DNA of 64,000 nt. It comes from Methylotuvimicrobium alcaliphilum 20Z (GTDB lineage: Bacteria; Pseudomonadota; Gammaproteobacteria; Methylococcales; Methylomonadaceae). A program made the translations under genes and the position numbers. Positions 17,041-63,712 of this stretch are shown one piece after another; the stretch's first letter is position 1; every line of letters begins with the position of its first letter. Location of the stretch: positions 3,658,001 to 3,722,000 of the forward strand of contig NC_016112.1 in NCBI RefSeq assembly GCF_000968535.2. Direction: 5' to 3'. The notes beneath the pieces were generated by a model. The model was not told the DNA's origin. It searched no databases and saw nothing but the letters and a program-made list of their open reading frames with translations.

Positions 17041-18162
17041 TTGATCGACCCTCATCGACTTTCCACACAATTGATCCGGCATCTCTATCGGCATTCAACA
17101 AGAGATCTTGCCGTTCATTGTGTACATACCGGCCTTATTGCAGCATACTTATGGTTCGAACTTCCCTTATCGATATGGGGGGCTTGGCTTGCTATTGCCT
17201 TGCTTGCCGGCTTTTGGCATTGGTATAGAAGCACCCAGGCGCTCCGCCATATTCCCGACGATACCATTAAGGGCGACACGATCGTGCCCGACATTGTCGC
17301 GGCCGGCATTGCCGGATTAAGCCTTGGCGTCAGCGCGCTCCTATTTCCCTTGCTATCGTTAGACACCCGCTTATTCGTCTTCATGATGCTGAGCGCTGTC
17401 GCCGCTGCAGCAATGCCTAGGCTTAGCACCTTGCCGTCGGTCTATGCGGCATTCTTATTCGGAATCTTGCTACCATTAATTGGTATTTTAATCGTAATGG
17501 ACAACGAGCCCGGCTTAAGCTCGATTCCCGCTATATTGATACTGGGCGGCAGCCTCTTTTATTCCGCTTATCGACTGCATTCCGATTTAATGGACGGCCT
17601 GCTTTCCCGCTTCGGTTTGGAAAACGAGGCCGGACAAGACAAATTGACGGGCCTTGCGAATCGACGCCGTTTCGATTTCGTACTACAACAAGAATGGGCG
17701 CATGCACTTCGATACAGAACCCCGATTTCCTTGATCATTATGGATATCGATTTTTTCAAGAAATACAACGACCATTACGGCCATCAAGAAGGAGACGACT
17801 GCTTGGAGCAAGTCGCGGGCGCGCTCGCCGAATCGGTTAAGCGGGCGATCGACCTAGTGGCGCGTTATGGCGGAGAAGAGTTTGTCGTACTGCTCAGTAA
17901 AACGGCGCGTGACGATGCCTATGCGATCGGCGAGCGGATGCGCCAAGCCGTCGAGGATCTCGAAATTGCTCACGAACAATCGACGCTAGGCCATGTCACG
18001 ATTAGCCTCGGAGGTTTTACAACATTTGCGAGGGAAGACATGAAGGCCGAAGACTTGGTAAAACTAGCCGACAAAGCTCTATACCGCTCTAAAGAAAGTG
18101 GGCGCAACAGGGTCACCTGGTATGACCCGAAACTGGACGATCCTGAAACGGCGGAGTTGTAA
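17041..18162 (+). CDS. Membrane diguanylate cyclase (GGDEF)
   Basis: Makes cyclic di-GMP from two GTP. 373 residues: five or six N-terminal membrane segments (about 27-175) without a recognised sensor domain, then a GGDEF domain starting at DKLTGLANRRRFD (about 200). The active-site motif is GGEEF at 277-281, and an inhibitory RxxD site (RAID, 268-271) sits five residues before it, so product inhibition is expected. The start is a TTG; no earlier ATG fits and the next Met would remove membrane segments. It sits between the flagellar and Tad pilus loci, convergent with tadG, which suggests but does not prove a role in the choice between swimming and attachment. Confidence 0.9.
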   Translation: MIDPHRLSTQLIRHLYRHSTRDLAVHCVHTGLIAAYLWFELPLSIWGAWLAIALLAGFWHWYRSTQALRHIPDDTIKGDTIVPDIVAAGIAGLSLGVSALLFPLLSLDTRLFVFMMLSAVAAAAMPRLSTLPSVYAAFLFGILLPLIGILIVMDNEPGLSSIPAILILGGSLFYSAYRLHSDLMDGLLSRFGLENEAGQDKLTGLANRRRFDFVLQQEWAHALRYRTPISLIIMDIDFFKKYNDHYGHQEGDDCLEQVAGALAESVKRAIDLVARYGGEEFVVLLSKTARDDAYAIGERMRQAVEDLEIAHEQSTLGHVTISLGGFTTFAREDMKAEDLVKLADKALYRSKESGRNRVTWYDPKLDDPETAEL

Positions 18163-61755: not shown

Positions 61756-63210
61756 ATGACTAAAAAACCGGCCTTATTCTTAATTTTAAGTTTGTTTTTA
61801 CAAGGCAACCGCCCTTTCTCGCCGGATATAACCAAAATCGAATTACCGGATATGGGCGACTCTTCCGGCACCTTGATCTCGCCCGCTCAGGAACAACAAT
61901 TAGGCGCGGCATTTTACCGAAGCCTGCATTCGCAAATCGCCATCAGCCAGGACGCTGAAATTCAGCAATATATCGAAGGAATCGGTCGGAAACTAGTGGC
62001 CAACAGCGATACCCCGGGCAATCCGTTTCATTTTTTCGTGGTCATGGATAACGCGATCAATGCTTTCGCCGGACCGGGCGGGTATATCGGCATCAATTCT
62101 GGACTCATATTGACATCCGAGGCGGAAAGCGAACTTGCTTCGGTGATGGCGCATGAGATCGCTCACGTTACCCAACGCCATCTTTACCGTGCGTTCGAAG
62201 CCGCCAGCCGTCTATCCATACCGACCGCAGCGGCGACTTTGGCGGCGATCTTAATCGGCACACAATCACCGGAACTCGCTCAAGCGGCGATCATGGCCGT
62301 TCAAGCAGGCAGCATACAGTTTCAGATCGATTTTACCCGCGATAACGAACAGGAAGCCGACCGGGTCGGTATGCAAACGCTTGCGGCATCCAATTTCGAC
62401 CCGCGTAGCATGCCGATTTTTTTTGAGCGCTTGCAACAATCCAGTCGTTATTATGGACGGGGCGTTCCCGAATTTTTAAGGACTCACCCGGTAACTTCTT
62501 CTCGGATCTCCGACACCCGTGGCCGGGCCGAAAAATATCCCTATCAACAATATCCCGATTCAATGGGTTATTTGTTGACACGGGCAAAACTCAGAGTACT
62601 TAGCGCCAACGATTACACACCGGTTTTAAATTATTTCAAACCTCGACTTAGCCAAGGCACGCAACAACAACGAGCCGTGGCTCGTTACGGAACGGGTCTT
62701 GTTCATCTAAACACAAGAAACTTCCAAGAAGCCGAACGAATTTTCAAGGCCTTAACCCAGGAATATCGCGAGCAGCCTCAGTTTGCGACAGCTTACGCTC
62801 GATCCGCATTGGAGGCACAAAACTTTTCAAATGCCTTAGCGCGCTATCAAGCAGCAATGCAGCAATTCCCTGGCAACCAAGCGATCAAGCTCGAAACCCT
62901 ATCCGCATTGCTGAAATCCGGCAACCCCGAACAAGCCAGACAAATTTTGCAAATGCTGGATGCGAGTACAAAACGGCAACCCGTCTATTTTAAATTGCTG
63001 GCGCAAATCTACAGCGATTTGAAGCAACCTGCCGAATCGCATCGCTATCTGGCTGAGTATTATTATGCAATGGGCCAAACCGACGCCGCCATCACGCAAA
63101 TCAAACTCGCTCAAAAATCGCCGGGGATCAATTATTACTTATCGGCAATTCTCAACGAACGATTGGTTTTTTTTATACGTGAAGAAGAACAGCGCAAACG
63201 CAACCAATAA
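61756..63210 (+). CDS. bepA: Periplasmic M48 metalloprotease/chaperone BepA
   Basis: Helps outer-membrane protein (LptD, BamA) assembly and removes misfolded forms. 484 residues: hydrophobic signal-like N-terminus, zinc motif HEIAH (133-137) with the third ligand in NEQEADRVGMQ, and C-terminal TPR repeats (LVHLNTRNFQEAERIFKALT and following). The signal sequence is short (LFLILSLFLQG) and lacks a clear AxA site, so the true start could differ. Ribosome site weak. Confidence 0.93.
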   Translation: MTKKPALFLILSLFLQGNRPFSPDITKIELPDMGDSSGTLISPAQEQQLGAAFYRSLHSQIAISQDAEIQQYIEGIGRKLVANSDTPGNPFHFFVVMDNAINAFAGPGGYIGINSGLILTSEAESELASVMAHEIAHVTQRHLYRAFEAASRLSIPTAAATLAAILIGTQSPELAQAAIMAVQAGSIQFQIDFTRDNEQEADRVGMQTLAASNFDPRSMPIFFERLQQSSRYYGRGVPEFLRTHPVTSSRISDTRGRAEKYPYQQYPDSMGYLLTRAKLRVLSANDYTPVLNYFKPRLSQGTQQQRAVARYGTGLVHLNTRNFQEAERIFKALTQEYREQPQFATAYARSALEAQNFSNALARYQAAMQQFPGNQAIKLETLSALLKSGNPEQARQILQMLDASTKRQPVYFKLLAQIYSDLKQPAESHRYLAEYYYAMGQTDAAITQIKLAQKSPGINYYLSAILNERLVFFIREEEQRKRNQ

Positions 63211-63384: not shown

Positions 63385-63416
63385 TTGATAGACATCACTG
63401 ATTTTAATGATATAAA
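63385..63416 (+). promoter_or_regulatory. Candidate promoter of the small RNA
   Basis: TATAAA at 63411-63416 with either TAGACA at 63389-63394 (16-bp spacing) or TTGATA at 63385-63390 (20 bp). AT-rich context. Confidence 0.45.
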
Positions 63417-63421
63417 ATCCT

Positions 63422-63597
63422 TTTCAGCTTACGGAGTGAGCCCGATTAAATAATCGGTAATGAGGAGGACGAGGCTTCAACGCCTTGAATTATAACAATA
63501 ATAAACGAGCAAACTGCTTGGTTGTCTTGGCGACAACAACGTTCAAATAAATAATAACAATAACAACCTGAACACGCCCGCTTTATGCGGGCTTTTT
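63422..63597 (+). ncRNA. Candidate structured small RNA
   Basis: About 175 nt between a promoter-like sequence and a strong terminator, without a credible reading frame. Perfect hairpins: CCGATTAAATAATCGG (63442-63457), AGGCTTCAACGCCT (63472-63485) and GTTGTCTTGGCGACAAC (63521-63537), joined by A-rich single-stranded stretches with repeated AACAATAA. One GAGGAGGA stretch (63462-63469) could pair with a ribosome-site complement or bind CsrA. I do not recognise the family. Confidence 0.45.
63576..63597 (+). terminator. Rho-independent terminator of the small RNA
   Basis: Stem GCCCGC/GCGGGC with loop TTTAT followed by TTTTT. Confidence 0.85.
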
Positions 63598-63712
63598 ATT
63601 GCCCTAAATTTTTTGCTAGCGGAATATTAAACCCAAGTTGCTATTAAGGTATTACGCTGCCTGGCCCCGCCAGAAGCGAGCGTTAGCGATTTAGCAGTGG
63701 AATCTATGCTTA

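Follow-up and report, generated by a model that had tools for sequence, protein, structure and literature searches.

A probable small RNA gene of Methylococcales with Hfq-, CsrA- and Shine-Dalgarno-like modules, and a candidate CU-rich partner RNA

The window (the whole stretch of 64,000 nucleotides that was analysed, from Methylotuvimicrobium alcaliphilum 20Z) very probably includes the gene for a small RNA (sRNA) at about 63389-63597, one of an sRNA family that, on comparative sequence grounds, belongs to the order Methylococcales and is common to most of the genomes sampled. The original prediction of an unrecognised small RNA gene is upheld by conservation across the order, covarying hairpins, a conserved promoter, neighbours that differ between families and the lack of a match to any Rfam family at cut-off. 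What we say of its protein binding, of the direction of regulation and of its physiological role is offered as suggestion. It is quite possible, although we stop short of calling it probable, that the RNA is an Hfq-bound decoy that mimics a Shine-Dalgarno sequence and opposes CU-rich sRNAs, and possibly binds CsrA as well. The combination of Hfq-, CsrA- and Shine-Dalgarno-like modules with an adjoining candidate partner RNA would give a direct entry to post-transcriptional control in methane oxidisers.

The gene and its predicted parts

The locus comprises a promoter-like element, a compact structured stretch and a terminator, with features as follows.

63389..63418, + strand: promoter-like element, -35 TAGACA and -10 TATAAAAT, preceded by a T tract; conserved in the 30-locus alignment
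63425..63597, + strand: predicted sRNA transcript, ends placed from promoter and terminator; the whole-RNA model R1 (see below) matches 63425-63601 at 171.9 bits
63427..63441, + strand: hairpin 1, with GGA (63433-63435) in the loop; an exact ANGGAN hexaloop is present in 30 of 73 sequences, the window not being one of them
63442..63457, + strand: hairpin 2, a covarying stem
63462..63469, + strand: GAGGAGGA, Shine-Dalgarno-like and complementary to CU-rich sRNAs of relatives
63470..63487, + strand: hairpin 3, from the fold
63494..63504, + strand: A-rich tract 1 (AANAANAA), from the motif count
63506..63537, + strand: two adjoining hairpins, from the fold; variable among relatives
63550..63566, + strand: A-rich tract 2 (AANAANAA), in the loop of a predicted helix at 63541-63573
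63576..63597, + strand: intrinsic terminator, stem 63576-63592 and T run

The promoter-like sequence, strong terminator and compact unit without a reading frame that had been described for this locus are all confirmed. The promoter-like element, TAGACA-18-TAAAAT, matches the consensus at 10 of 12 positions; a promoter scan by itself performs at chance level (3 found, against a mean of 2.4 in shuffles), and the element is kept across the alignment of 30 loci. There are four open reading frames of at least 20 codons, the longest of 22 aa, and the 176 nt from 63425 to 63600 have a predicted fold of -52.4 kcal/mol (z -5.18), with none of 200 shuffles as good. What is generally looked for in an sRNA gene, namely its own promoter, the lack of an ORF, an intrinsic terminator and conserved structure, is therefore found here. 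The sRNA has a single match in the genome to which the window belongs, both by DNA and by covariance model.

In the minimum free energy (MFE) structure of the full-length RNA there are hairpins at 63427-63441, 63442-63457, 63470-63487, 63489-63502 (weak), 63506-63520 and 63521-63537, then the terminator, and also the helix at 63541-63573 that encloses the second A-rich tract. Hairpins and A-rich tracts are thus present as originally described, but the number of three hairpins was too low. In the same structure 63459-63466, which comprises the first five bases of GAGGAGGA and the three preceding bases, is paired with the U tail; GAGGAGGA is unpaired when 63425-63490 is folded alone.

Covariation in relatives had been proposed as a check, and the 5' hairpins do covary. 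For the two stems of this 5' domain 97.9% of cells are paired, against a mean of 89.1% in 500 shuffles of the 3' letters, none of which came as high, in a set of 16 of 42 sequences picked for clean alignment, so that the count leans towards structure. A slid-pairing control gave 31-51% of cells paired. Both sides change in 4 of 9 pairs, and the count of pair types is unremarkable (136 of 500).

With regard to the neighbours, the upstream ORF at 61756-63210 (+) is one that we take to be bepA, for an M48 peptidase, and the nearest long ORF downstream is convergent. Of 30 f1 loci examined, 28 have a bepA match beside the sRNA, whereas the 11 sRNA loci of other families have none (loci of about 1.5-2.3 kb on each side in both cases), and it is because the match is confined to f1 loci that we treat the sRNA as a stand-alone gene. 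A leader or attenuator is rejected, as there is no same-strand gene close downstream. It is highly improbable that there is no gene here of its own, and that we are dealing with a bepA 3'UTR, a cis leader or a chance structure: the frequent adjacency of bepA in f1 would suit such a reading, but the conserved promoter, the loci of other families and the convergent downstream ORF all argue against it.

Distribution in the Methylococcales

The sRNA has a DNA match in 95 of the family's 151 genomes, from 25 of 29 genera, and the promoter, first hairpin, purine motif, A-rich tracts and terminator are common to the 30 loci aligned. R1, a whole-RNA covariance model built on 28 sequences, matches 189 of 251 Methylococcales genomes in 39 of 48 genera, seed genomes being counted in. 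The positive families are f1, f2, f4, f5 and f6, the neighbours of the sRNA changing from one family to another, and R1 matched no genome of f7 in this search of 251 genomes. Over the class R1 matched 3 of 369 genomes, each of them Methylococcales. R2, a model of the 5' domain that was searched over the class, gave 14 matches outside the order at 18.8-22 bits, compared with 53.4 for the window, and these are taken as background. There may be a diverged homologue outside the order, since a genome within it (G153) scores just 21.4 bits with R2.

The loci L116 and L118-L127, from genera g11, g12, g14, g15 and g23, are weak R1 matches (39-47 bits). They resemble a paralogous sRNA family that has the purine motif, and GGACGAAGCCC or a near-identical sequence before the terminator.

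Rfam gave no match at the gathering cut-off in the window, in 20 relatives or in 12 partner or paralog loci, which is in keeping with the RNA having been unrecognised. Permissive thresholds added sub-threshold matches alone, mostly on the terminator, and the best of those below cut-off, Trp_leader with 26.6 of 41 bits (E 0.0044), probably arises in that way. In titles and the starts of abstracts, in a literature coverage that left most subscription journals outside, no native Methylococcales sRNA family was found; a synthetic sRNA is reported to be in use in Methylomonas (PMC7720504).

A CU-rich sRNA and its complementarity to the purine motif

In six loci of f4 and f6 (L072, L074, L075, L076, L079 and L062) there is a convergent unit just beyond the sRNA terminator, consisting of a promoter-like sequence, a short variable part, UCUCCUCC and a terminator of its own, with a TCATAAGA element upstream in all except L079. 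This convergent CU-rich sRNA has no Rfam match. From those six sequences we built R3, a model of the final 45 nt of the CU-rich sRNA. With E values to 0.05, a level at which about a dozen chance matches are expected, R3 has matches in 165 of 251 genomes, and we excluded L159, L162, L167, L169, L189, L209, L228, L241 and L248 as coding or not CU-sRNA-like. Matches of at least 40 bits are in 49 genomes (hand count), belonging to f4, f6, f7 and f8. R3 matches in f1 are weak (35.5 bits at most), and those examined are mostly CU-rich sRNAs with a conserved upstream element of the GCGACAAT..TGTCAC type.

The first sRNA is also present in 18 of the best 30 CU-sRNA loci by R3 score. Among these 30 the two genes are tail-to-tail within 220 nt in 16 of the 20 loci of f4 and f6, six of them being the R3 seed loci, and recognition of the first sRNA in the two f8 loci is weak (19.7 and 33 bits). 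Eight f7 loci have the CU-sRNA with no second GAGGRGGA nearby. The CU-rich sRNA of the f1 genomes examined is elsewhere, and not beside the first sRNA. The window genome has one match, of 21.5 bits, at C2:791886-791930, and this carries the f1 upstream element.

Several other observations on the CU-rich sRNA can be recorded here. In f8 a diverged first sRNA adjoins it in L204/L130 (the same place) and L136, and in L204/L130 sits between two matches of the CU-sRNA model. The f1 loci L190-L203, L210-L227 and L163 have CU-rich sRNAs behind variants of GCGACAATnTGTCACGCGACAATnTGCCACATTCC, an upstream element that, we presume, resembles PrrA/RegA-type sites, and genomes G015, G024, G257 and G260 have two CU-rich copies 175-221 nt apart. 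A weak match to the CU-sRNA model in the window at 17759-17799 (-), with E 0.071, is probably chance as its flank looks like coding sequence. We also dismissed as chance a CU-rich motif found close to the sRNA in L006.

Of 73 sequences of the first sRNA, 65 have GAGGRGG. Pairing with the CU-rich sRNA was tested in 53 genomes (35 of f1 and 18 of f4, f6 and f8), being those for which both RNA sequences were available. In f4, f6 and f8 the best helix lies on the purine motif in 18 of 18 genomes and runs for 10-21 contiguous pairs, G-U included, and in none of the 18 does more than 1 of 200 shuffles reach the duplex energy of the real RNAs; in 11 of them there are 16-21 contiguous pairs, extending past the core motif. 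The best helix is on the motif in 31 of the 35 f1 genomes, and the genomes with no more than 10 of 200 shuffles as good number 8 of 35 by helix score and 9 of 35 by duplex energy, the clearest pairings being of 15 contiguous pairs in G074 and 14 in G043. For the window genome the helix is of 7 contiguous bases, with 90 of 200 shuffles as good, and the duplex energy (124 of 200 as good) is no better than chance; four other genomes of the genus gave 17 to 96 of 200 by duplex energy.

When partners were swapped between genera in 20000 permutations, 2348 did as well within f1 and 3106 within f4/f6/f8, no clear loss in either group; over all genera 0 of 20000 did as well, which arises because the families differ from one another. 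From the helix, duplex-energy and partner-swap results we therefore grade pairing of the two sRNAs as likely in f4, f6 and f8 and as possible in f1, making no such claim for Methylotuvimicrobium. GAGGAGGA had been put forward as a CsrA site or antisense seed, and it is the second role, as a pairing seed, that gains support, in other families; the GGA loop of hairpin 1 is the better CsrA candidate.

Possible functions and comparison with known systems

Counted without alignment, 47 of 73 distinct sequences have a GGA-loop hairpin within their first 24 nt (8.6 when shuffled), and 30 have an exact ANGGAN hexaloop with at least 4 closing pairs (0.2 when shuffled); the AANAANAA motif averages 5.78 per RNA, against 0.46 in shuffles, and occurs at least once in all 73. 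The 73 sequences are related to one another, and these motif counts are hence not independent. CsrA is encoded in the window genome with L4 and R44 kept (positions counted by hand). The sRNA could be a CsrA/RsmA antagonist in the role of CsrB or RsmY/Z, with hairpin 1 and GAGGAGGA jointly titrating CsrA, and the hexaloop is of the type that RsmE is reported to bind (PMC7652899). No CsrB or RsmZ was found above the Rfam cut-off in 41 relatives, in a search that for RsmZ had no control genome over cut-off and gave a single sub-threshold match (29.6 bits, G019). However, the window RNA has three GGA in all, one of them in a hairpin loop, and so is without the many GGA loops of CsrB and RsmX/Y/Z; it has the GGA hairpin but not the exact hexaloop, GGA is absent at the place of loop 1 in 12 of 73 sequences, and GAGGRGGA, which reads GAGGGGGA in many relatives, does not fit ANGGA. 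We consider this role unlikely.

Sponging of Hfq in the manner of CrcZ, in which the AANAANAA tracts would titrate Hfq, with or without Crc, off A-rich leaders, we regard as distinctly improbable. The window RNA has six overlapping AANAANAA positions, and Azotobacter CrcZ is reported to have six Hfq-bound motifs of this type, in loops (PMC5429807). But the six positions make two tracts, not six, the promoter is sigma70-like rather than RpoN, Rfam gave no match, and tracts of this kind, resembling the ARN tract in MgrR, a class II Hfq sRNA, are reported for class II sRNAs too (PMC6239178). Rather unlikely also is an ordinary mRNA-pairing Hfq sRNA, the complementarity to the CU-rich sRNAs being a by-product of Shine-Dalgarno-like and anti-Shine-Dalgarno-like motifs. 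The partner swaps within families and the lack of significant pairing in the window genome are as such an RNA would have them, but not the tail-to-tail neighbours, nor the long helices that run beyond the core motif in 11 of the 18 f4, f6 and f8 genomes.

The reading that we prefer, that of a decoy, is as follows. The sRNA would be transcribed from its own sigma70-like promoter and act in trans; of the trans-acting RNA originally proposed, the stand-alone conserved gene is supported and the trans action is our suggestion. The window RNA has the ARN/AAN tract and U-tailed terminator of class II Hfq sRNAs, and by analogy with these it is most likely retained on Hfq through its A-rich tracts and U tail. 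Hfq is encoded in the window genome, with F at position 25 of the distal face (counted by hand) in place of the Y of E. coli, for which the distal-face mutant is Y25D (PMC6239178). GAGGRGGA would draw CU-rich sRNAs into pairing and away from the ribosome-binding sites that they would cover without it, and it is for this reason that the sRNA would work as a decoy or sponge. The complementarity is there in f4, f6 and f8 and suggestive in part of f1, the genus of the window excepted. The GGA of hairpin 1 would probably bind CsrA as well. Counting against the decoy are the chance-level pairing in the window genome, the small share of f1 genomes with few shuffles as good, the partner swaps without clear loss, the f7 loci that have the CU-rich sRNA but no second GAGGRGGA nearby, the F at position 25 of Hfq, and those bases of the motif that the full-length MFE structure pairs with the U tail, which Hfq would need to free.

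More tentatively still, there could be a methanotroph circuit across the order, in which an Hfq-held Shine-Dalgarno mimic, also able to catch CsrA, is set against CU-rich anti-Shine-Dalgarno sRNAs. The genes are tail-to-tail in f4 and f6, and in f1 the CU-rich gene is elsewhere, multi-copy in several genomes and behind a conserved GCGACA..TGTC-type upstream element.

Among known systems, CrcZ and CrcY of Pseudomonas and Azotobacter resemble the window sRNA in their reported Hfq-bound AANAANAA motifs (PMC5429807). The window sRNA differs in having two tracts only, together with a GGA-loop hairpin and GAGGRGGA; we noticed a sigma70-like promoter and no RpoN promoter, and scans with all of Rfam gave no match, which would separate it from CrcZ if the library holds a CrcZ model. 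McaS of E. coli is named as a class II Hfq sRNA (PMC6239178), and it has GGA motifs and is proposed as a CsrA antagonist (PMC7652899), a combination of traits like that seen here, but the window sRNA has no Rfam match and, among the genomes sampled, is confined to Methylococcales. The A-rich ARN-type tract is shared with class II sRNAs such as MgrR (PMC6239178) and ChiX. Unlike them, the window sRNA has two tracts, and is purine-rich where they have a typical seed.

Sponges of the SroC type are RNAs that base-pair with another sRNA. In contrast to SroC we have here a stand-alone gene, which in f4 and f6 is often tail-to-tail with that of its presumed partner.
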